DNA of 64,000 nt from Streptomyces sp. RPA4-2 (GTDB lineage: Bacteria > Actinomycetota > Actinomycetes > Streptomycetales > Streptomycetaceae): positions 9,796,001-9,860,000 of the forward strand of contig NZ_CP050975.2 in the NCBI RefSeq assembly GCF_012273515.2, written 5' to 3'. How positions within the stretch are numbered: position 1 is the stretch's first letter; every line of letters begins with the position of its first letter. Shown in pieces: positions 21,298 to 32,857 of the stretch. The notes below the pieces were generated by a model that searched no databases, was not told where the DNA came from, and was given only the letters and a program-made list of their open reading frames with translations. The position numbers were made by a program, and so were the translations under genes.

Positions 21298-21338
21298 GGC
21301 ACGGTCCGCCCCCCATCCCGCGGGGAGCGGACCGTGCC
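21298..21338 (-). terminator. Hairpin terminator of the GH2 gene
   Basis: Perfect 12-bp arms 21298-21309 and 21327-21338 with a 17-nt loop lie about 75 bp after the GH2 stop on the minus strand. Confidence 0.65.
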
Positions 21339-21411
21339 GACGACCCGTCAGCGGGTCAGAACGGAGTGTGCACGGAGACGCGGGGAGGCGTCGGCCGCGG
21401 ACGCCCCGCTG

Positions 21412-24015
21412 TCAGGAGCAGCCCGCCGGCGTCGGTTGCGACGCGTCGTGGATCAGCGCGTCCTGGGCCGCCTTCAGCCGCTTCACGTCGGGCTTGACCA
21501 CCTTGCGGTCGTACGTCATCAGCCCGTTCAGCTCGCCCTCCACATCCGAGATCTGGGTGTAGACGGCGCCGTTGCCGCCCCTGCAGGCGAGCTTGTGCAC
21601 CTCGTCCAGGCGGGCCAGATAGTCGTCGGTGTACGCGGCCGGGTCCACGTCCACGTAGGACTGCTGCACCGACCAGGCATGACCGGGCACCGCGAGGCCG
21701 AGACCGCCGTACTCACCGCTGACCAGGGCCCGTTTCCCGTCGGGATTCGGTGGCAGCGCGGGGCTCGGGTAGCCGTGCTCGTCGATGATGTCGCCGGTGC
21801 CGCCGTCCACGCCGAGGTTGATGCCCGACATGGAGTTGACGAGGCGTGTCGGGTCCCAGGACTTGGCCTGGTCGGCGATACGGGCCTCGTCGTACTGGCC
21901 CCAGCCCTCGTTGAAGGTCACCCACATGACGACCGAGGGGCTGCTGATGTGCTCGTCGATCATCTGCTTCATCTCGCGCTCGTACTCGGCGCGGGACGCG
22001 GCGTCCGGATTGACCCCGGCGGTCATGGCGGGCATGTCCTGCCAGACCATCAGACCGAGCCGGTCCGCCCAGTAGAACCAGCGGTCGGGTTCCACCTTGA
22101 TGTGTTTGCGGACCGCGTTGAAGCCCATCTGTTTGTGCATCCTCAGGTCGTACGCCAGTGCCTCGTCGGTCGGCGCGGTGTACAGGCCGTCGGGCCAGAA
22201 GCCCTGGTCGAGGGTGGCCATCATGAAGACGGGCTTGCCGTTGAGGACGGTGCGCGGGGTTCCGTTCACCTGCTCCACGGCGATGGACCGCATCCCGAAG
22301 TAGCTGCCGACGCGGTCGGCGCCGACGGTCACCTTCAGGTCGTAGAGGAAGGGGTCGTCCGGCGACCAGAGGTGCGGGTTGCCGATCCTCAGGGTGAGCG
22401 GCTGTCCGGTGCGGCCGGTCACCGTGGCGACCTCGCGGTGTCCGGCGTACGCGGTGGCGGTGACCGGTACTCCGTTCCGAACGCCCTGCGGCTCGACGGT
22501 GAGCCGGCTGTTCTTGACGTCCGGCGTCAGCTTGAGCGAGTCGACGTGATCGGTGGCCACCGGCTCCATCCACACCGTCTGCCAGATGCCGGAGGACGGG
22601 GTGTACCAGATGCCGCTGGGGTCGAGACGCTGCTTGCCCACCGGCGGATTCTCGCCGCCCTGTGCGTCGGTCGGGTCGTAGACGCCGACGATCAGTTCCT
22701 GGGTGCGGCCCGGCTTCAGCGCGGCGGTGACGTCGGCGCTGAACTTGTCGTAGCCGCCCTGGTGTTCGGTGACCTTGGTGCCGTTGACGTAGACCTCGGC
22801 CTTCCAGTCGACGGCGCCGAAGTTGAGCCGCAGGCGCTTGCCGGAGCCGATCCGCCAGTCCTTCGGGACGGTGAAGGTGCGGCGGTACCACATGCGGTCC
22901 TCGTGCCGTTCGATGCCGGAGAGCTGGGACTCCACGGGGTAGGGCACGAGGATCTTCTCGGCGAGGTTCCTGCCGACCGGCGGCTGGTCACCGGCTTTGG
23001 CCGCGGCGAACTGCCACGAGCCGTTCAGGTCGCGCCAGTTGTCCCGGGTGAGCTGGGGCCGGGGGTACTCGGGGTGAGCGTTGCGCGGGCCGACGTCGTC
23101 CGCCCACTTCGTCCGCAGCTGGTAGGTGGAGTGGTTGGAGCCGCTGCTCCAGAAGGCGTTGACAACGTTGCCGTTCGTGCCGGAGAGGCCGCCCTTGCCG
23201 TCGTAGCGCAGGTCGGCCGTGCCTCGGGCCGTGCCGGTCTTGTTGCCGACGACGGGTTCCTTCAGACGGACGAGCAGGGACTTCGGGTCGGCGGGGTCCA
23301 GTTTCGCCGTGGACAGGGGCCACTTGGCGCCGCCGATGACCGCCTCGACATGGTCGGTGAGACCTGCCGGGGGTGCGGTCAGGGCCTGGGCGAAGTCGAG
23401 GCGCAGGGTACGGCCGTCCCCCTGGACCGTGGTGGCGATGGCACCGTCGTAGGCATATCCGTCGGGCAGCCGGAGCGCCGACTGCGGGACGGCCGTCTTG
23501 GTGCCGCCCGGCGGGGTCCAGCGCAGGTGGAGGTTGGAGCCGCCGAAGTGCTCGAAGTACTCGACCTTGATGTCGTAGGCCTGTCCGGCGGTCAGGTCGA
23601 GGGGCTGGGAGGTCTGTTCCCGGTCCCAGTCGTCGACCCAGTGGTCGATGGCGAGGTGCCCGTCGACCCACAGCCGGAAGCCGTTGTCGCCGATGATCGA
23701 GAAGGTGTGGGCGCCGGTCTTCTCCGGGACGATCCGGCCGGTCCAGCGGACGTTGACGTCGTCCGACTGTCCGGTGGCGAAGGCGAGTCGCGGCTCCAGG
23801 TTGTCGAAGTCGAGGTTGGTGTCGAATCCGGTGGCCTTCAGCTCGTGGAAGTCGAAGGCGCCGGGGGCGGACTGGGTGTAGTACTCGCCTTTCAGGCCGT
23901 GGACCTCCACGGGGTCGCCGGCGGCTGTGGCGGCCGGGGCGGCGGTGAGTCCCGCGAAGCCGAGCACGGCGACGAGCAGGAGTGCCATTTGGGTTCGGAG
24001 TCTTCTGATGCGCAC
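21412..24015 (-). CDS. Secreted PA14-GH2 glycoside hydrolase, possible beta-galactofuranosidase
   Basis: GTG 24015 follows AAGGAGG and encodes 867 residues. A signal peptide (about residues 1-32, ending ATAA) leads to a PA14 domain (EYYTQSAPGAFDFHELKATG; NGFRLWVDGHLAIDHW). The GH2 part has the jelly-roll domain (MWYRRTFTVPKDW), an immunoglobulin-like domain and a TIM barrel with acid/base Glu in FNEGWGQ (about residue 701) and nucleophile Glu in SGEYGG (about 766). Retaining GH2 enzymes remove beta-linked sugars; characterised Streptomyces GH2 members include beta-galactofuranosidases. That specificity is inferred from the neighbouring YtfQ-like importer. It is divergent from the LacI gene and has a LacI-type operator upstream. 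Confidence 0.9.
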   Translation of the reverse strand: MRIRRLRTQMALLLVAVLGFAGLTAAPAATAAGDPVEVHGLKGEYYTQSAPGAFDFHELKATGFDTNLDFDNLEPRLAFATGQSDDVNVRWTGRIVPEKTGAHTFSIIGDNGFRLWVDGHLAIDHWVDDWDREQTSQPLDLTAGQAYDIKVEYFEHFGGSNLHLRWTPPGGTKTAVPQSALRLPDGYAYDGAIATTVQGDGRTLRLDFAQALTAPPAGLTDHVEAVIGGAKWPLSTAKLDPADPKSLLVRLKEPVVGNKTGTARGTADLRYDGKGGLSGTNGNVVNAFWSSGSNHSTYQLRTKWADDVGPRNAHPEYPRPQLTRDNWRDLNGSWQFAAAKAGDQPPVGRNLAEKILVPYPVESQLSGIERHEDRMWYRRTFTVPKDWRIGSGKRLRLNFGAVDWKAEVYVNGTKVTEHQGGYDKFSADVTAALKPGRTQELIVGVYDPTDAQGGENPPVGKQRLDPSGIWYTPSSGIWQTVWMEPVATDHVDSLKLTPDVKNSRLTVEPQGVRNGVPVTATAYAGHREVATVTGRTGQPLTLRIGNPHLWSPDDPFLYDLKVTVGADRVGSYFGMRSIAVEQVNGTPRTVLNGKPVFMMATLDQGFWPDGLYTAPTDEALAYDLRMHKQMGFNAVRKHIKVEPDRWFYWADRLGLMVWQDMPAMTAGVNPDAASRAEYEREMKQMIDEHISSPSVVMWVTFNEGWGQYDEARIADQAKSWDPTRLVNSMSGINLGVDGGTGDIIDEHGYPSPALPPNPDGKRALVSGEYGGLGLAVPGHAWSVQQSYVDVDPAAYTDDYLARLDEVHKLACRGGNGAVYTQISDVEGELNGLMTYDRKVVKPDVKRLKAAQDALIHDASQPTPAGCS

Positions 24016-24060
24016 GGATCCTCCTTGGCTGAGGAAGGGTGGCGGCTCGTTGCTTCAGTC

Positions 24061-24077
24061 TGTACAACGTTGGAAGG
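24061..24077. promoter_or_regulatory. LacI operator upstream of the GH2 gene
   Basis: TGTACAACGTTGGAAGG lies 45 bp upstream of the GH2 start. Its reverse complement, CCTTCCAACGTTGTACA, matches the site before the ABC operon (25219-25235) at 14 of 17 positions, including CCTTCCAACG and TGTA. The central CG is typical of LacI-family operators. Confidence 0.7.
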
Positions 24078-24174
24078 AACGGGAGTTGGCATCACAGCAC
24101 GGGTCCCGGCCTCTGTCCAGGGTCATGACAAACGGCCTGGTGGCAGAGGCGCACATCGATGGAGAGGAGATCCC

Positions 24175-25188
24175 TTGCGGGTCAGCCTGAAGGACGTCGC
24201 GGAGCGCGCCGGCGTCTCGATCAAGACGGTTTCGAACGTCGTGAACAACTATCCGCACGTCACCCCGGCCATGCGGGCCCGGGTCCAGGAGGCCATCGAC
24301 GAGCTGGGCTACCGGCCGAACCTCACGGCGCGCCATCTGCGCAAGGGCCGCACGGGCATCATCGCGCTCGCCATCCCCGAGCTGGGCAACCCCTACTTCG
24401 CCGAGCTGGCCGGAGCCGTCGTCGACGCCGCCGCCGAGCACGAGTTCACCGTGCTTCTCGACCACACGCGGGGCGACCGGGAGCAGGAGGTACTGGTCAG
24501 CCAGGGGTTCCGGGCGAATGTGATCGACGGTCTGATCCTCAGCCCGCTGGAGCTGGAGGCCGAGGATCTGCGCTCCCGCGCCGACGACGTGCCGCTCGTG
24601 CTGCTCGGCGAGCGCGAGTACGAACTGCCCTACGACCACATCGCGATCGACAACGTGGCGGCCGCGCGCAGCGCGGTACGCCATCTGCTGAGCCGCGGAC
24701 GCTCACGGATCGCCTATCTGGGGGCCCGTACGGATTCGGCCAACCGGCCGGCTCATCTGCGACTGGCGGGCTGGCGCGAGGAGCTGACGGAGGCCGGGGT
24801 GCCCGCGCCCGACGACCTGGTGGTGCCGGTCGGCGGCTGGGACCGGGACGAGGGCGCGCGGGGGATGGCCCGGCTGCTGGATTCCGGGGTGCGTCCGGAC
24901 GCCGTTTTCGCGTACAACGACCTGGTCGCGATCGGTGCGATGCGGGTGCTGCACGAGCGCGGTCTGCGGGTGCCGTGGGACGTGGCGGTGGTCGGTTTCG
25001 ACGACATCGAGGAGGGGCGGTTCGGTGCCGTCACACTGACGACGATCTCGCCGGACAAGCAGGCCATCGCCCGGATGGCGGTGGCCTCCCTGCTGCGCAG
25101 CCTGTCGGGCCGTACCGAGCCCGGGGGACGTGAACTGACCGCGGATTTCCGGCTCGTGGAGCGCGAGAGCACCCTGGGGCGGCGCTGA
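24175..25188 (+). CDS. LacI-family sugar-responsive repressor
   Basis: I place the start at TTG 24175, 4 bp after GGAGAGGAGA, giving 337 residues with the HTH at the very N-terminus (SLKDVAERAGVSIKTVSNVV). It has the hinge (LTARHLRKGRTGIIA) and the two-lobed periplasmic-binding-like effector domain (ELGNPYFAELAGAVVDAA, ending VVGFDDIEEGRFGAVTLTTI). The gene sits between the GH2 enzyme and the YtfQ-like importer, and both flanking promoters contain the same 17-bp operator. It should repress scavenging and uptake until the sugar, perhaps galactofuranose or an oligosaccharide of it, binds. Confidence 0.92.
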   Translation: MRVSLKDVAERAGVSIKTVSNVVNNYPHVTPAMRARVQEAIDELGYRPNLTARHLRKGRTGIIALAIPELGNPYFAELAGAVVDAAAEHEFTVLLDHTRGDREQEVLVSQGFRANVIDGLILSPLELEAEDLRSRADDVPLVLLGEREYELPYDHIAIDNVAAARSAVRHLLSRGRSRIAYLGARTDSANRPAHLRLAGWREELTEAGVPAPDDLVVPVGGWDRDEGARGMARLLDSGVRPDAVFAYNDLVAIGAMRVLHERGLRVPWDVAVVGFDDIEEGRFGAVTLTTISPDKQAIARMAVASLLRSLSGRTEPGGRELTADFRLVERESTLGRR

Positions 25189-25218
25189 CGGGATTTCGGA
25201 CCGAAGGCTTTACAGCCT

Positions 25219-25235
25219 CCTTCCAACGATGTAAA
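25219..25235. promoter_or_regulatory. LacI operator upstream of the ABC importer operon
   Basis: CCTTCCAACGATGTAAA lies about 97 bp upstream of the substrate-binding protein gene and is nearly identical to the reverse complement of the site at 24061-24077. Confidence 0.7.
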
Positions 25236-25288
25236 AACCTCCCCGGAACGACGTGTACACCGAGTTGACCGCAAGAGCCGATCATCCC

Positions 25289-25302
25289 CGGGAGCGCTCT
25301 CA
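25289..25302. promoter_or_regulatory. CebR-like palindrome in the ABC operon promoter
   Basis: CGGGAGCGCTCTCA matches 12 of 14 bases of TGGGAGCGCTCCCA, the binding site of the cellobiose repressor CebR in Streptomyces. It lies 29 bp before the start of the substrate-binding protein. A second level of control by cellobiose status is possible but unproven. Confidence 0.35.
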
Positions 25303-25331
25303 GCGCCGGGGCCGCGCCGTTTGGGGACTCC

Positions 25332-26432
25332 ATGAAGCCGATCGCACCTCGTCACCGCACCTCCGCCAGGACCCTCCTCGCCACCGGCCTCGTCACGAGC
25401 CTCGCGCTCGTCTCCGGATGCGCGAAGTCGGAGGACGACTCCGCAGGCAAGGACAAGAGCTCCACCAGCCAGGGCGACTCGGGCCAGGTCGTCGCCTCGC
25501 CGTCCACCGGTTCCGGCCCGACCTGCGCCATAGACGCCTACGGCGCACCGAAGACCGACCTGAAGACGGCCACCGTGGGCTTCTCCCAGTCCGAGAAGGA
25601 GGCCAACCCCTTCCGGATCGCCGAGACGGCGTCGATCAAGGCCGAGGCGAAGCAGCGGGGCGTGAAGCTGCTGACGGCCAACGCCCAGTCGCAGTTCTCC
25701 AAGCAGATCAGCGACGTCCAGGACCTCATCGCCAAGGGCGCCGACCTCCTGGTGATCGCACCGCTCAACTCGGACGGCTGGGAGCCGGTCCTGCGCTCGG
25801 CCTCCGCCAAGCACATCCCGATCATCACCATCGACCGAAAGATCAACGCCGCCGCCTGCAAGGATTACGTGAGCTTCATCGGCTCCGACTTCGTGGAGCA
25901 GGGCAAACGGGCCGCGGACCGGATGATCGAGGCGACCGGCGGCAAGGGTGAGATCGCCATCCTGCTGGGCGCCGCGGGCAACAACGTGACGACCGAGCGC
26001 ACCAAGGGCTTCGAGGAGCGCGTCAAGGAGAAGGCGCCCGGCCTCAAGATCGTCTTCAAGCAGACCGGCGAATTCGCCCGGGAGAAGGGCCAGTCGGTCA
26101 CCGAGAACCTCATCCAGTCCAAGCCCGGCATCACCGGGATCTACGCCGAGAACGACGAGATGGGACTCGGGGCGGTCAACGCCCTCAAGGGGGCCGGCAA
26201 GCAGCCGGGCGCGGTGAAGATCGTGACGATCGACGGCACCCGCAACGCTGTCCAGGGCATCGTCGACGGCTGGATCGACGGCGTCGTCGAGTCCAACCCC
26301 CGCTTCGGACCGCTCGCCTTCCAGACCCTGGACACCTTCACCAAGGGGGAGAAGGTCGCCCAGGACATCGTCATCCAGGACAGCGAGTACACCACGGCCA
26401 ACGCCAAGTCGGACCTGGGCAAGGCCTACTGA
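25332..26432 (+). CDS. Sugar ABC transporter substrate-binding lipoprotein, YtfQ-like
   Basis: The 366-residue protein has a signal peptide ending in the lipobox VSGC (Cys30), then a Ser/Asp/Lys spacer and a periplasmic-binding fold. It closely follows E. coli YtfQ: TVGFSQSEKEANPFRIAET, VIAPLNSDGWEPVLRSA, IYAENDEMGLGAV and IDGTRNAVQGIVDG. YtfQ binds galactofuranose. The gene opens a four-gene operon with 1 bp before the ATPase gene, and its promoter contains a LacI-type operator. Extracellular, membrane-tethered location follows from the lipobox. Confidence 0.93.
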   Translation: MKPIAPRHRTSARTLLATGLVTSLALVSGCAKSEDDSAGKDKSSTSQGDSGQVVASPSTGSGPTCAIDAYGAPKTDLKTATVGFSQSEKEANPFRIAETASIKAEAKQRGVKLLTANAQSQFSKQISDVQDLIAKGADLLVIAPLNSDGWEPVLRSASAKHIPIITIDRKINAAACKDYVSFIGSDFVEQGKRAADRMIEATGGKGEIAILLGAAGNNVTTERTKGFEERVKEKAPGLKIVFKQTGEFAREKGQSVTENLIQSKPGITGIYAENDEMGLGAVNALKGAGKQPGAVKIVTIDGTRNAVQGIVDGWIDGVVESNPRFGPLAFQTLDTFTKGEKVAQDIVIQDSEYTTANAKSDLGKAY

Positions 26433-26433
26433 C

Positions 26434-27975
26434 ATGTTGTCGGTCACCGGTCTGTCGAAGACCTTCCCCGGCGTGAAGGCCCTCTCCCAGGTGGACTTCA
26501 GGGCCCGCGCCGGGGAGGTGCACGCACTCATCGGCGAGAACGGCGCGGGCAAGTCGACCCTCATCAAGGTCCTCACCGGGGTCTACCAGCCCGACGAGGG
26601 AGAAGTGACGTACAACGGCGCCCCGGTCCGCTTCGCCACCCCGCTGCACGCGCAGCACGCGGGAATCTCCACCATCTACCAGGAGGTCAACCTCGTCCCG
26701 CTGATGACCGTGGCCCGCAACCTCTTCCTCGGCCGCGAGCCCCGCAACCGGCTGGGCCTGATCGACTTCCGGCGCATGCACCGGGACGCGGACGAGGCAC
26801 TGCGCGAGCTCGGGCTGCGTGTCGACGTACGCCGTCCCTTGCGTGAACTGGGCGTCGGCGCACAGCAGATGGTGGCCCTCGCCCGCGCCGTCTCCGTCGA
26901 CGCCCGCGTGGTCGTCATGGACGAACCGACCTCCTCACTCGAACCGCGCGAGGTCCGGACCCTGTTCGGGGTGATCCGGATGCTGCGCGAGCGGGGCATC
27001 GCGGTGATCTACGTCAGTCACCGGCTCGACGAGCTGTACGAGATCTGCGACGCGGTCACCGTGCTGCGCGACGGCGAGGTCGTGCACACCGGCCGCATCG
27101 CCGAGCTCGACCGGCTGAGGCTCGTGGCGCTGATGCTGGGACGGGAGATCACGGACGTACGCGAGGACGGCCTCACCAAGTTCGCGGGCAGCCATGAAAC
27201 CGCGACCGAACCCGTCCTGGAGGCAACACAACTGACTGTGCGTCACAAACTGGACGGGGTGTCGGTCTCGGTACGTCCCGGCGAGGTGGTGGGGCTCGGC
27301 GGCCTGCTCGGGTCGGGCCGTACCGAGACCGCCAAGGCCATCGCGGGCGCACTGCCCACCGACTCCGGGCGGGTCGTGGTGGCGGGCGTGCGCGTACGCA
27401 CCGGCTCGACCCCCGCCGCGATCCGCGCGGGCATCAGCCTGCTCCCCGAGGACCGCAAGGCCGAAGGCATCGTGTCGGGCCTCTCGGTCCGCGAGAACAT
27501 CGCGCTCGCCGCGCTGCCGGGCCTCTCACGCTTCGGCCTGGTCGACGAGGCACGCATCGACCGGATCGTCGAGACCTTCATGAAGCGGCTGCGCATCAAG
27601 GCGGCCGGCCCCCACCAGAAGGTGGGCGAACTGTCCGGCGGCAACCAGCAGAAGGTCCTGCTGGCCCGCTGGCTGGCCATGCAGCCCAAGGTCCTGCTCC
27701 TCGACGAGCCGACCCGGGGCATCGACGTCGGAGCCAAGGCGGAGGTGCAGAAACTGATCGACGAACTGGCCGACGACGGACTCGGCGTCCTCCTCATCTC
27801 CTCGGACCCGGAGGAACTGATCGAAGGCAGCGACCGGGTGATCGTCCTCAAGGACGGCGCGGTCGTCGAGGAACTGACCGGCGACGCCGTCACCGAGGAC
27901 CGGCTGATGCGCGCCATAGCCGCCGCACCCGCGGACACGGGTACCGGCACCGGCCCGGGAGGCCACGATGACTGA
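26434..27975 (+). CDS. Sugar ABC transporter ATPase with two nucleotide-binding domains, YtfR-like
   Basis: The 513-residue protein contains two fused ABC domains as in RbsA/AraG/YtfR. The first has Walker A GENGAGKST, Walker B VVVMDEPTSSLEP and a non-standard signature (LGVGAQQMVALARA). The second has a degenerate Walker A (GLLGSGRTET) but a good signature LSGGNQQKV and Walker B VLLLDEPTRGID, the usual asymmetry of this group. It follows the binding-protein gene by 1 bp and overlaps the first permease gene by 8 bp, so the operon is translationally coupled. Confidence 0.94.
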   Translation: MLSVTGLSKTFPGVKALSQVDFRARAGEVHALIGENGAGKSTLIKVLTGVYQPDEGEVTYNGAPVRFATPLHAQHAGISTIYQEVNLVPLMTVARNLFLGREPRNRLGLIDFRRMHRDADEALRELGLRVDVRRPLRELGVGAQQMVALARAVSVDARVVVMDEPTSSLEPREVRTLFGVIRMLRERGIAVIYVSHRLDELYEICDAVTVLRDGEVVHTGRIAELDRLRLVALMLGREITDVREDGLTKFAGSHETATEPVLEATQLTVRHKLDGVSVSVRPGEVVGLGGLLGSGRTETAKAIAGALPTDSGRVVVAGVRVRTGSTPAAIRAGISLLPEDRKAEGIVSGLSVRENIALAALPGLSRFGLVDEARIDRIVETFMKRLRIKAAGPHQKVGELSGGNQQKVLLARWLAMQPKVLLLDEPTRGIDVGAKAEVQKLIDELADDGLGVLLISSDPEELIEGSDRVIVLKDGAVVEELTGDAVTEDRLMRAIAAAPADTGTGTGPGGHDD

Positions 27976-28930
27976 CCTGACCCTGGGCCGGGTGACCGCG
28001 GACCGCGACCGACTGCTGCGCCTGCTCCAGGAGTACGGCGTCTACCTCGGCGTCGTGGTCCTCTTCCTGGCCAACACCGTCCTCACCCCCCACTTCCTGT
28101 CCACCGAGAACTTCCGCACCCAGGCCGTCCAGGTCGCCCCCGTCCTGATCGTGGCGCTCGGCATGGCGCTGGCGATCGGCAGTGAGGGCGTGGACCTGGC
28201 GGTCGGCTCGGTCATGGCCCTGTCCACCTCGCTCCTGTCCCTCTACCTCGGCTACGGGCCCTGGATCGCCATCCTGATCGCCCTCGTGGGCGGTGCCGTG
28301 ATCGGTGTCGCGAACGGCTCGCTCATCGCCTTCGTCGGCGTCCAGCCGATCGTCGCGACGCTCGCTCTGATGGTCGCCGGGCGCGGCCTTGCCCTGGTAC
28401 TCCTTCCTCAGCTAAAGGACGTCCACGACCCGGCGATGGCGTCACTCGGCTCGGGCGATGTCCTGGGCGTCCCGTATCTCGTGCTGATCGCCGCCGCCCT
28501 GGCGCTGCTCGTCGCCTTCGTCGTGCGCCGCACCACCTTCGGCCGGCAACTCCTCGCCATCGGGGACAGCCGCGCGGCCGCGCGGCTCGCCGGACTGCCG
28601 GTGCGCCGCGTGCTGATCCTGGTGTACGTCTGCTCCGGCGTCCTCGCCGCGATCGCGGGCGTGCTGGCCACCGCCCGCCTGACCGCGAGCGACCCGACCT
28701 CGCTCGGCAACCTGATGGAACTCTCCGCGATCACCGCGGTCGTGGTCGGCGGCACCCCGTTGAGCGGAGGCCGCGTCCGCATCGGCGGCACGGTCGCGGG
28801 CGCCGTCCTGATCCAGTTGCTCACCACCACGCTGATCAAGCACGATCTGCCGCCGTCGTGGACCCAGATCGCCCAGGCCGTGGTGATCGTCCTCGCCGTC
28901 TACGCGGCACGGGAACGAGGAAAGCGATGA
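27968..28930 (+). CDS. Sugar ABC transporter permease, YtfT-like
   Basis: The 320-residue membrane protein has about eight to ten hydrophobic segments and the family motif GMALAIGSEGVDLAVGSVMALS, followed by the cytoplasmic loop EAA-like region RRTTFGRQLLAIGDSRAAARLAG. It belongs to the RbsC/YtfT class and should pair with the next gene to form a heteromeric channel. The start overlaps the ATPase gene; the stop overlaps the next ATG as ATGA. Confidence 0.92.
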   Translation: MTDLTLGRVTADRDRLLRLLQEYGVYLGVVVLFLANTVLTPHFLSTENFRTQAVQVAPVLIVALGMALAIGSEGVDLAVGSVMALSTSLLSLYLGYGPWIAILIALVGGAVIGVANGSLIAFVGVQPIVATLALMVAGRGLALVLLPQLKDVHDPAMASLGSGDVLGVPYLVLIAAALALLVAFVVRRTTFGRQLLAIGDSRAAARLAGLPVRRVLILVYVCSGVLAAIAGVLATARLTASDPTSLGNLMELSAITAVVVGGTPLSGGRVRIGGTVAGAVLIQLLTTTLIKHDLPPSWTQIAQAVVIVLAVYAARERGKR

Positions 28931-29949
28931 CGACCGACGTGGACACTCCGGTGAGCGCCAAGAGCACGGCCGAGGACGATCCGCCCGGCGCCACCCGCTC
29001 CGAGCGGCTCAGCGCGCTGGCCCAGCAGCACGGCGCCCTGGTCACCCTCGTCGTCGCGATGATCGCGGCGTCGCTCAGCTTCGACACCTTCCTGACCGGC
29101 GACAACCTGGAGAACATGGCGCTCTCCTCGGCGTTCCTCGCGGTGGTCGCGCTCGGTATGACCTTCGTCATCGTCACCGGCGGCATCGACCTGTCGGTGG
29201 GCTCGCTCTTCGCCCTCGGCGGGGTGCTGGCAGCCTGGGGATCGCAGTACGGAACGGCGGTGGCGCTGTTGCTCCCGCTCGCCGTGTGCGGACTGATCGG
29301 GCTGGTCAACGGCCTGCTGATAGCCCGCTCGCGACTGGCTCCGTTCATCGTCACGCTGGCGGCGATGCTGGGGGCCAGGGGCATCCTGCTCTCCGTCACC
29401 GACGAGGGCTCGACGACGTATCTCGTGGACAAGGACTCGTTCTTCGCGAAGCTCGGCCAGGACACGTTGCTCGGTATCGGCATCCCCGTGTGGATCACCG
29501 TCGCACTGTTCGTGCTCGGCGCGGTCGTGCTCCGGCGTACCCGCTTCGGCCAGTACGTCTACGCGGTCGGAGGTAACGAGGACGCGGCGGCGCTGATGGG
29601 CGCCCCCGTGGCCCGTACGAAGATCTCCGTCTACACGCTCTCCGGGCTCTGCGCGGGGCTCGCCGGGGCACTCAACGCGGCCTGGCTGGTGTCGGGCGTG
29701 ACGATCCTCGGCTCCGGCATGGAACTGGAGGCGATCTCCGCGGTGGTGATCGGCGGCACGCTGCTCACCGGAGGGTTCGGCTTCATCAGCGGTTCGCTGG
29801 TGGGTGTTCTGCTGCTGAAGGTCATCCAGAACGTCATCAACCAGATCGGTTCACTGGACTCGGCGTACCAACAGGTCGTCAGCGGCGCCTTCTTGGCCGT
29901 GGTGGTCATCGCGCAGACGTGGCTGGGACGTAGACGACGAGTGTTGTGA
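28927..29949 (+). CDS. Sugar ABC transporter permease, YjfF-like
   Basis: ATG 28927 overlaps the stop of the first permease (ATGA) and gives 340 residues. After a short hydrophilic N-terminus come eight to ten membrane segments with ALGMTFVIVTGGIDLSVGSL and the loop RRTRFGQYVYAVGGNEDAA, characteristic of the second permease in YtfQRT-YjfF systems. It is the last gene of the operon. The 350 bp downstream carry only remnants of an MFS transporter on the other strand. Confidence 0.92.
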   Translation: MTTDVDTPVSAKSTAEDDPPGATRSERLSALAQQHGALVTLVVAMIAASLSFDTFLTGDNLENMALSSAFLAVVALGMTFVIVTGGIDLSVGSLFALGGVLAAWGSQYGTAVALLLPLAVCGLIGLVNGLLIARSRLAPFIVTLAAMLGARGILLSVTDEGSTTYLVDKDSFFAKLGQDTLLGIGIPVWITVALFVLGAVVLRRTRFGQYVYAVGGNEDAAALMGAPVARTKISVYTLSGLCAGLAGALNAAWLVSGVTILGSGMELEAISAVVIGGTLLTGGFGFISGSLVGVLLLKVIQNVINQIGSLDSAYQQVVSGAFLAVVVIAQTWLGRRRRVL

Positions 29950-30809: not shown

Positions 30810-31565
30810 TCACACCATCCGTACGGCGACACCGGCCGCGGCCAGCGCCTCGGTCTCGTCGTCGGGGGCGGACCGGTCCGTCACGACGGCGTGCAGGGCG
30901 GAGGCCGGGGTGACGAAAGCGAGAGCGGTGCGGGAGAGTTTGGCGGCCTCGGTGACGGCGATGACACGACGGGCCGAGGCGATCGCGGCGCGCTTGATCG
31001 CGGCGTCGGCGAGGTCGTAGGCGGTGAGGCCGTCCGCGACGGTCAGGCCGCAGCACCCGATGACCGCGGTGTCGAAACGCAGGGCGGCCAGCGACGCCTC
31101 GGTCAGCGGGCCGGTCAGTGCCAGTTCACCGACACGTGGTTCCCCGCCGGGCAGCAGGAGTTTCAACTGGGGGGCGCCGGTCAGCGCGTTGGCCGCGTGC
31201 AGCGACAGCGGCACGACGGTCAGCCGGCGTTGATGGAGGGCGCGGGCGACTTCCAGACAGGTGGTGCCGCTGTCGACGACGACCGACTCGCCGTCCGCGA
31301 TCAGCGCGGCGACCTCGACGGCGAGCCGCCGCTTGACCTCCAGGCCGTCCTGGGCCCGGAGGGCGAACGGCGGCTCCTCGCCGCGCAGGAGCAGGCTTCG
31401 GGCCCCGCCGCGGTATCGCTCCAGGACCCCCTGATCGGCCAGGACCTCCAGGTCGCGGCGGATGGTCATCTCCGAGGCGCCCGTGAGCTCGGCCAGTTCC
31501 GCGACGCTCAGGCGACCGGTCTCCCTCACGGCATCGGCGATCTTCTTCAGCCGCTCTGCGCTCAT
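30810..31565 (-). CDS. DeoR-family transcriptional regulator
   Basis: ATG 31565 has GGAGG 4 bp upstream and gives 251 residues. The N-terminal HTH (RLSVAELAELTGASEMTIRR, DLEVLADQGVLERYRGGA) is the DeoR signature, and the C-terminal half is the DeoR-C sugar-phosphate sensor (VVDSGTTCLEVARAL, GCCGLTVADGLTAYDLADAA). These repressors respond to phosphorylated sugars or related metabolites. The gene is divergent from an MFS transporter across about 65 bp that carry four GAACA/TGTTC half-sites, so control of that transporter and of itself is likely. Confidence 0.9.
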   Translation of the reverse strand: MSAERLKKIADAVRETGRLSVAELAELTGASEMTIRRDLEVLADQGVLERYRGGARSLLLRGEEPPFALRAQDGLEVKRRLAVEVAALIADGESVVVDSGTTCLEVARALHQRRLTVVPLSLHAANALTGAPQLKLLLPGGEPRVGELALTGPLTEASLAALRFDTAVIGCCGLTVADGLTAYDLADAAIKRAAIASARRVIAVTEAAKLSRTALAFVTPASALHAVVTDRSAPDDETEALAAAGVAVRMV

Positions 31566-31610
31566 CATGCCTCCATAAGACCACCTCCGGCGATCGCAAC
31601 GCAACCTTTC

Positions 31611-31649
31611 GAACATCGAGGTTGTTCGTTATGTTCGTTCGCATGAACA
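31611..31649. promoter_or_regulatory. Array of GAACA/TGTTC half-sites (DeoR operator candidate)
   Basis: Half-sites GAACA 31611-31615, TGTTC 31623-31627, TGTTC 31632-31636 and GAACA 31645-31649 form two facing pairs across the start of the MFS gene. Such repeated sites suit a multimeric DeoR repressor. Binding is inferred. Confidence 0.5.
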
Positions 31650-32857
31650 AAACCCTGAAGGCCGGCCGACTGGCCACGTTCGCCTTCTTCGCCATCGTCG
31701 GCTTCGACATGGGGATGTGGATCGTCCACATCCCCGCCATCGAGCAGCGCGTCGGCATCAGCCACGCGGTGCTCGGCTGGCTCCTGCTGCTGCTCGGCGC
31801 CGGCGCCTTCACGGGCATGCAGCTCATCGGCCCGCTCACCGACCGCTTCGGTGCCCGCACGGTCGTCCCTGCGAGCGCCGTGCTGTGCAGCGCGGCCCTG
31901 GTTCTGCCGGGCTTGGCCACCGACGTCTGGACACTGGGCGCGGCACTCGCGGTGTTCGGCTTCTCCAGCGGCTGTCTGGACGTGAGCATCAACACCCACG
32001 CCGTGCAGGTCGAGCGCGGCTACCAGCGACCCGTCATGTCCGCCTTCCACGCCCTCTTCTCCATCGGCGGTGTGGCTGCCTCGCTGGTCGGCGCCCTCAC
32101 CCTGACCCGAGGCTGGAGCCCGGCCACCACCCTGGGTGCCATGGCACTGCTCAGCCTGGGCGCCACCGCCCTCGCCGCGCCCGCCCTGCTTCGCCAGGAC
32201 CATGCCCGTGACCTCGCCGCCGCCGTCGCCGCGCCCCAGGCCGTCAAAGCCCGGCGCAGGACGCCCCCACGCATCTGGATACTCGCCGCGCTCGCCTTCG
32301 CACTCATGCTCTGTGAGGGCGTCGCCAACGACTGGAGCGCGCTGCACCTCAAGGACGTGCTCGACGCGCCCGCCTCGACCGCCGCCCTGGCCTACGGCGC
32401 CTACGCCACCGCCATGACCACCGGCCGACTCCTCGCCGACCGGGTGGCCGCACGCCTGGGCACGGTCGCCGTACTGCGCTACGGATCGGCCCTCGCCGCA
32501 CTCGGCATGACCCTGGCGGCACTCGCGCCCAACGTCCCCATGGCCCTGGCCGGCTGGACCGTCTTCGGCGCCGGTCTGTCCGGCTGCATCCCCCAGCTCT
32601 TCAGCGCCGCCGGCCATACCGACCCTGCCGCAGCCGGAGCCAACGTCTCCCGGGTGTCCGGCCTCGGATACCTCGGCATGCTCGCCGGACCCGCGGTGAT
32701 CGGGCCGCTGACCGAGGTCGTCCCGCTCAATCTCACCTTCTTCCTGCCGGTGGCCTTCTGTGTCACGGCCAGTGTCACCGCCCGCATCCTCAAGACCGCG
32801 CCTGTGACAATTGCGGAGGGCGGGACCAGGGAGGCTGACCGGGCGACCGCACGCTAG
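31631..32857 (+). CDS. MFS transporter
   Basis: About 408 residues with roughly twelve hydrophobic segments, the loop 2-3 motif GPLTDRFGARTVV (MFS motif A) and a cytoplasmic middle loop rich in Ala/Arg (about residues 190-215). It lacks the long C-terminus of sugar symporters. The start is uncertain: ATG 31631 lies 10 bp after GAGG; ATG 31643 is also in frame and TTG 31622 is conceivable. It is divergent from the DeoR regulator, which suggests sugar, polyol or metabolite transport under DeoR control. Specificity cannot be read from the sequence. Confidence 0.88.
   Translation: MFVRMNKTLKAGRLATFAFFAIVGFDMGMWIVHIPAIEQRVGISHAVLGWLLLLLGAGAFTGMQLIGPLTDRFGARTVVPASAVLCSAALVLPGLATDVWTLGAALAVFGFSSGCLDVSINTHAVQVERGYQRPVMSAFHALFSIGGVAASLVGALTLTRGWSPATTLGAMALLSLGATALAAPALLRQDHARDLAAAVAAPQAVKARRRTPPRIWILAALAFALMLCEGVANDWSALHLKDVLDAPASTAALAYGAYATAMTTGRLLADRVAARLGTVAVLRYGSALAALGMTLAALAPNVPMALAGWTVFGAGLSGCIPQLFSAAGHTDPAAAGANVSRVSGLGYLGMLAGPAVIGPLTEVVPLNLTFFLPVAFCVTASVTARILKTAPVTIAEGGTREADRATAR

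Follow-up and report, generated by a model that had tools for sequence, protein, structure and literature searches.

Which sugar is gathered by a locus in which the gene for a secreted glycoside hydrolase stands beside a LacI-family regulator and an ATP-binding cassette (ABC) importer of the CUT2 type? The question is raised by the right end of the single-contig genome of Streptomyces sp. RPA4-2 (NZ_CP050975.2), of which the window analyzed here, a stretch of 64,000 nucleotides, covers positions 9796001-9860000 of 9860181. At 21412-29949 of the window, a minus-strand gene for a PA14-GH2 enzyme is followed by a plus-strand LacI gene and the four genes of the importer, all of which were found by domain matches where the initial annotation had placed them. 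Our analysis favors, with a probability of roughly 0.78, the reading of this locus as a LacI-controlled unit for scavenging galactofuranose (Galf), a constituent of fungal cell walls that is described in the accessible parts of the literature as confined to non-mammalian species, and whose degradation and metabolism were called little understood in the available portion of a 2015 paper on a galactofuranosidase. Galf scavenging had already been proposed in the initial annotation, and it draws support from the placement of the enzyme, the pairing of enzyme and importer genes (44/46) and an operator that accompanies the LacI gene (18/23 loci vs. 3/35); the name YtfQRT-YjfF, which had been given to the importer, did not hold. 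Gene content, enzyme placement, linkage and operator conservation were computed directly; we infer the activity of the enzyme, the ligand of the binding protein, repression with its inducer, and the food. The features are as follows, in window coordinates.

21298-21338, minus strand: hairpin downstream of the GH2 stop codon, its stem approximately 18 bp long, a probable terminator (folding energies)
21412-24015, minus strand: secreted PA14-GH2 enzyme of 867 aa, predicted exo-beta-D-galactofuranosidase (domain matches, tree, alignment)
24062-24078, plus strand: LacI-type operator 1, GTACAACGTTGGAAGGA, between the GH2 and LacI genes (pattern scan)
24175-25188, plus strand: LacI-family regulator of 337 aa with a TTG start (domain matches; homologues in related loci)
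25218-25234, minus strand: LacI-type operator 2, TTACATCGTTGGAAGGA, in the intergenic region between the LacI and binding-protein genes (pattern scan)
25332-26432, plus strand: lipoprotein sugar-binding protein of the CUT2 importer, lipobox LVSGC (domains, tree)
26434-27975, plus strand: CUT2 ABC ATPase with two ABC_tran stretches, YtfR-like (Pfam, NCBIfam)
27968-28930, plus strand: CUT2 permease 1, BPD_transp_2, best NCBIfam match YtfT (Pfam, NCBIfam)
28927-29949, plus strand: CUT2 permease 2, BPD_transp_2, best NCBIfam match YjfF (Pfam, NCBIfam)

The PA14-GH2 Enzyme

The enzyme has a signal-peptide-like N terminus, a PA14 domain (86.8 bits) and three GH2 domains (PF02837, PF00703 and PF02836: sugar-binding, immunoglobulin-like and TIM-barrel), all above the Pfam cut-offs. 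Among the best 60 of its 123 matches in the PDB, the first two are 9j6n (590 bits) and 9j6m (588 bits), both beta-D-galactofuranosidase, followed by 7sf2 (493 bits), named merely as a GH2 protein, 7xyr (288 bits), and then numerous glucuronidases and galactosidases. In its GH2 part, the enzyme is 51% identical over 587 columns to the galactofuranosidase of Streptomyces sp. JHA19 (ORF1110; PDB 9j6m/9j6n; GH2_18), with the same acid/base Glu and Asp: E703 (NEGWG) and D660 (WQDMP) align with E464 and D423. The nucleophile is presumably E768 (GEYGG), as predicted from the GH2 motif. Mutation of D423 and E464 impaired the activity of the JHA19 enzyme, according to the accessible part of its report. 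The two proteins differ in that the JHA19 enzyme carries an AbfB domain where the window enzyme has PA14. As a side observation on the JHA19 protein, the available part of PMC11084152 names E573 as its nucleophile; with the numbering offset that fits D423/E464, E573 falls in AIREV, and the glutamate of the GH2-typical GEFGG would be E530.

A 29-row GH2 tree clusters the window enzyme with that of JHA19 and their homologues, apart from 7xyr (GH2_19), UidA and LacZ, the key forks being supported at 93/97 with 7sf2 and Paenibacillus included and 88/95 without them, below the bootstrap mark of 95. Placement in a glucuronidase or galactopyranosidase clade, which the initial annotation had named as fatal to its proposal, was thus not seen, and both identities were rejected on structure-library scores and the tree. 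A mannosidase identity was set aside by the ranking of structure matches alone, since the tree had no mannosidase row. The 2025 paper subdividing GH2 assigns 9j6m to GH2_18 and treats GH2_18 and GH2_19 as a furanose-active group, as far as its accessible part goes. The window enzyme is most likely a GH2_18-type beta-D-galactofuranosidase, to judge from these alignments and scores.

A second parallel, compared by description only, is ORF0643 of Streptomyces sp. JHA26, an 869-aa galactofuranosidase that shares with the 867-aa window enzyme the genus and the layout of an N-terminal PA14 domain followed by GH2. It is active on galactomannan of Aspergillus fumigatus, its PA14 domain is important for this activity, and galactofuranosidase activity was found in the culture supernatant of JHA26 (PMC5391426; PMC7278926, in the part available).

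Linkage of Enzyme and Importer

Co-occurrence of the two genes was followed across 150 genomes of the genus, with an E-value of at most 1e-100 for a GH2 match and at most 1e-80 for a binding-protein match. The GH2 query matched in 76/150 genomes and the binding protein in 46/150; for 44 of these 46 binding proteins, a GH2 match is no more than 12 kb away. The exceptions are a genome with the two genes on separate contigs (G075) and one that has no GH2 match (G117). Both genes occurred in 45 genomes, the binding protein alone in 1, GH2 alone in 31 and neither in 73 (Fisher 1.7e-16, uncorrected for kinship). Gene order varies among the linked loci, and named loci with GH2 and a binding protein of at least 60% identity include those of Nonomuraea and Microbispora. 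Farther afield, Paenibacillus planticolens has a galactofuranosidase homologue about 7 kb from a binding protein of the GafA clade. An enzyme of the JHA19 type, absent from the window and 78-95% identical to JHA19 itself, stands beside the same transporter in 17 of 112 related loci (16 plus L151; 95% in L172), and the importer is thereby connected with close kin of a galactofuranosidase whose biochemistry has been characterized. This genome context supports the pairing of enzyme and importer. As GH2 often occurs without the binding protein, the enzyme is not dependent on the importer.

Two side observations concern these genomes. The locus of G117 (L202) has a 50% relative of the binding protein, a LacI (69%), the importer and an aldose 1-epimerase, with no GH2 at 1e-100 and no operator hit; it is perhaps the same importer type fed from another sugar source. 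The GH2 match falls in two pieces on one contig in G106, G119 and G075, has an internal TGA in G073 and is spread over two contigs in G028, cases of decay or assembly faults.

The LacI Regulator and Its Operators

The regulator matches the LacI helix-turn-helix and the Peripla_BP_3 ligand domain. The two 17-bp operators are nearly identical, lie in opposite orientation, one in each intergenic region, and were each found one base from the position first given for them (24061 and 25219). Operator 1 (2 mismatches to the pattern) lies at a distance of 46 bp from the start of GH2 and of 96 bp from that of lacI; the binding-protein gene begins 97 bp away from operator 2 (0 mismatches). By chance, a mean of 0.02 occurrences of the pattern was expected in 100 shuffles, none of which contained two. 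In the whole genome, the 16-base core with at most 2 mismatches was found at four places, against one for a backward control, and the two exact ones are the window sites; the palindromic core KTNCAWCGWTGNAM, which covers both operators, occurs at five places and its backward control pattern at none.

Conservation of the site was counted in 58 Streptomyces loci with a GH2 at least 60% identical, 23 of which have a LacI gene in the locus and 35 of which do not. When 1 mismatch at most is allowed, a site precedes GH2 in 18/23 loci with LacI vs. 3/35 without (3/34 once L126, for which there is no sequence upstream, is left out, as it ought to be); at up to 3 mismatches the counts are 21/23 vs. 8/35. 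L090 and L105, also among the 35, have fewer than 600 bases upstream, so that a LacI gene there could not show. By these counts, operator and LacI gene tend to occur together.

A matrix trained on 41 sites was scanned over 42 loci (L146-L155 and L171-L202), five of which (L197-L201) share the locus type of the training set. It gave 58 hits in 31 of the 42, and all 58 lie between -420 and +60 bases of the inferred start of a binding-protein, galactofuranosidase, LacI or GH127 gene; 607 kb of base-shuffled sequence stayed free of hits, also under a looser threshold. Nine of 32 stretches fell below the threshold, with weaker sites only in L180, L181, L188, L189, L190, L191 and L193 and none in L196 and L202. 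The eight loci from Nonomuraea and Microbispora had no operator site and no LacI match, and seven of them (all but L137) contain a DeoR gene.

The proposition that an operator without an adjacent LacI implies a LacI elsewhere, followed in 18 genomes, had a mixed outcome. For all three loci with a 0-mismatch site (L110, L114 and L090), the genome encodes a LacI that is at least 70% identical, although that of L090 may simply sit past the contig end, as only about 590 bases lie upstream. The same holds for 1/5 loci with a weaker site of 2-3 mismatches (L100) and for 3/10 genomes without such a site (L099, L103 and L107). From the conservation of the sites, LacI is predicted to control both operators, presumably by repression that an inducer would relieve.

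The Importer and Its Binding Protein

The importer has the gene order of E. coli YtfQRT-YjfF, and the YtfQ, YtfR, YtfT and YjfF models rank first among NCBIfam models for its four proteins. No equivalog cut-off was reached: the binding protein scores 197-198 bits against NF041827 (YtfQ; cut-off 510), which is the best score in the genome (next 142.6), the ATPase 581.5 bits against YtfR (cut-off 850), permease 1 171.5 bits against YtfT (cut-off 535; AraH close behind at 169.2) and permease 2 232.9 bits against YjfF (cut-off 363; AraH 222.3). In the PDB, the binding protein matches 6hyh, 6hb0 and 6hbd (MSMEG_1712), then 5ocp (Shewanella GafA), 2ioy (ribose-type) and 2vk2 (YtfQ); the first two we take to be MSMEG_1712 as well. 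A binding-protein tree of 23 rows (midpoint root, several long branches) places it in an actinobacterial clade (90/85) that joins the GafA clade (joint fork 91/96; GafA 100/100) apart from RbsB, so that it lies beside the GafA/YtfQ clade and not inside it. Orthology with YtfQ was rejected on the missed cut-offs and this position. Three segments had been singled out as YtfQ-specific in the initial annotation; VGFSQ and GWEPVL are indeed identical in E. coli YtfQ, but AENDEM is not specific, because YtfQ has AHNDDM and ribose-type 2ioy has AQNDEM.

The accessible part of the Shewanella GafA paper reports that binding-site residues, including a Trp over the sugar ring, are identical in three GafA structures, that the pair Arg38-Asp111 gives room for Galf in YtfQ, and that the bulky Phe40 may shut Galf out of the Shewanella protein, which takes arabinofuranose only. 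By alignment, the window protein retains both Arg and Asp of this pair and has Glu, as does YtfQ, at the place of Phe40. The GWR shared by YtfQ, MSMEG_1712 and Shewanella GafA has become NPFR in the window protein and in 10 aligned actinobacterial relatives, and we read the Trp of GWR as the ring-stacking one described in that paper. With Arg, Asp and Glu in place but Trp replaced by Phe, the importer plausibly works as a furanose importer without being a GafA member.

Compared with the GafABCD/YtfQRT-YjfF importers of E. coli, Mycolicibacterium smegmatis (MSMEG_1712) and Shewanella, the window importer is thus alike in CUT2 type and in the Arg/Asp pair, and unlike in clade, identity, ring residue and NCBIfam score. 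It also differs in company: the known importers are tied, according to the accessible literature, to arabinose genes, GalR/GalS or AraC, whereas this one is tied to galactofuranosidases and an adjacent LacI. The rbsDACBK-rbsR system is similar in joining a CUT2 importer to a LacI-family repressor and in the NPF motif of its binding protein; the window locus differs in having no kinase gene and in a binding protein that the tree places with GafA, not RbsB.

Proposed Mechanism and Alternative Explanations

In the mechanism proposed, the secreted PA14-GH2 enzyme would split off terminal beta-D-galactofuranose residues of glycans outside the cell, fungal galactomannan being the likeliest, while its PA14 domain grips the polymer. 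The lipoprotein would capture the freed sugar, probably as the furanose ahead of mutarotation, and the CUT2 transporter would bring it into the cell, where it would open, close to galactopyranose and enter the Leloir pathway encoded elsewhere; galK and galT were found in the genome above cut-offs. When the sugar is absent, LacI would repress the enzyme promoter through the site at 24062 and the importer promoter through that at 25218.

Several observations weigh against this account. No binding-protein match was found in 31 of the 76 GH2-positive genomes of the genus, and a binding protein of at least 60% identity occurs in only 30 of 80 named GH2 loci (some contigs being short). Operator hits at the matrix threshold are missing from 11/42 loci, and neither sites nor linkages are independent among related genomes. 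The two key GH2 forks have the support given above, and the tree program flagged the outgroups as long branches. The binding protein is 36-38% identical to YtfQ, MSMEG_1712 and Shewanella GafA and 38.5% to ribose-type 2ioy, and the change of ESGWR to EANPFR puts Phe where GafA has its ring-stacking Trp.

The strongest alternative, which we consider unlikely, keeps the enzyme as a galactofuranosidase and gives the importer a broader or different furanose choice, either L-arabinofuranose, as for MSMEG_1712 and Shewanella GafA, or ribose. The solved close relatives bind L-arabinofuranose as well as, or in place of, Galf, as far as the accessible sources state; NPF in the binding site resembles ribose-type proteins, identity to 2ioy is no lower than that to GafA, and AraH models are nearly level with YtfT and YjfF in a set that met no equivalog cut-off. 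Galf is favored as the ligand by the linkage of 44/46 binding proteins to galactofuranosidase homologues, by the tree, which joins the clade to GafA and not to RbsB (91/96), and by the absence of any arabinose catabolic family among the 10 window neighbors tested. The JHA19 enzyme is, moreover, reported to lack arabinofuranosidase activity in the available part of PMC7278926.

Decidedly improbable is a different specificity of the GH2 enzyme itself, e.g., for alpha-L-arabinofuranoside, so that the whole locus would serve arabinan or arabinogalactan. GH2 Group III contains both activities, according to the accessible part of the source, and GH127, a beta-L-arabinofuranosidase family, occurs in 25 of the 112 related loci. 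The closest characterized enzymes are nevertheless described as Galf-specific (PMC5391426; PMC7278926, in the part available), no arabinosidase is present among the same 10 neighbors, and JHA19-type enzymes occur in the same cluster in 17 loci.

Recycling of Galf from the wall polymer of the organism itself, in place of a foreign glycan, is very improbable. Some actinobacteria make galactofuranan, which gives the idea its footing, but PF03275 (GLF), the UDP-galactopyranose mutase family, had no match in the genome in a search that was positive in 4/14 control genomes, Corynebacterium included. Since no mutase was matched, the organism probably does not make Galf, a foreign glycan is the likely food, and own-wall recycling was set aside.

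That the neighbors are unrelated and came together by chance can practically be dismissed, even with 31/76 GH2-positive genomes lacking the importer's binding protein, given linkage in 44/46, several gene orders and common operators.

Accessory Genes and the Wider Regulon

Besides the 25 occurrences of GH127, 18 of the 112 loci gave an aldose 1-epimerase match and 18 a JHA19-type sequence, the importer being absent from some of them; GH47, GH43 and a GxGYxYP enzyme were matched in one locus each. A mannosidase-family neighbor such as GH47 would fit fungal galactomannan, on the thin evidence of a single case. In seven loci (L178, L179, L182, L183, L185, L186 and L195), a GH127 gene divergent from the binding-protein gene has an operator close to its start. 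Alpha-D-Galf and beta-L-arabinofuranose have a common ring stereochemistry, and these operator-linked GH127 enzymes may be alpha-D-galactofuranosidases. The linked aldose 1-epimerase may speed furanose-to-pyranose conversion in the cell.

A third operator-like site, the perfect palindrome TTACAACGTTGTAA at 407742-407755 of the genome (L168:7743-7756), lies about 110 bp upstream of a gene whose product is a secreted, MGH1-like glycoside hydrolase that also has lectin-type domains. This enzyme has homologues (55-58%) in 2 of the 112 loci, the galactofuranosidase loci of Nonomuraea aurantiaca (L132) and of an actinobacterial metagenome-assembled genome (L145). Palindrome and homologues together make the MGH1-like enzyme a likely but unproven further member of the regulon. 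Palindromes of a TTGCA type at 617739 and 619260, near a distant GH2 paralogue (33%) and a LacI-like gene (L170, genome 612000-622000), were assigned to another system.

The enzyme type is already known and the scavenging design is ordinary. No earlier account of an enzyme-importer-LacI locus was found in the titles and abstract openings of open-licence literature; the locus adds a binding-protein clade outside GafA and a well-supported Galf regulon of which these gave no description. It is possible, if on the whole doubtful, that a dedicated Galf regulon, governed by LacI in Streptomyces, is widespread in actinobacteria and built on this non-GafA clade with a different furanose pocket, with GH127 and the epimerase as accessories. 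The locus brings a characterized type of enzyme together with a likely importer and a likely switch, and it gives the new clade a testable ligand. Its promoter is a natural candidate for one that responds to galactofuranose and, with the binding protein, could serve in sensors for fungal galactomannan.

Genomic Setting

The ends of the importer genes nearly touch or overlap, as in an operon, the start of permease 2 sharing an ATGA overlap with the end of permease 1. The coordinate at which the initial annotation began the locus, 21298, is the foot of the strong hairpin 3' of the GH2 gene, which has a z of -5.4 (DNA energies), none of 200 shuffles folding equally well. Downstream of the locus, the gene for a DeoR-family regulator (30810-31616) adjoins that for a major facilitator superfamily transporter (31622-32857), a pair that is apparently unrelated.

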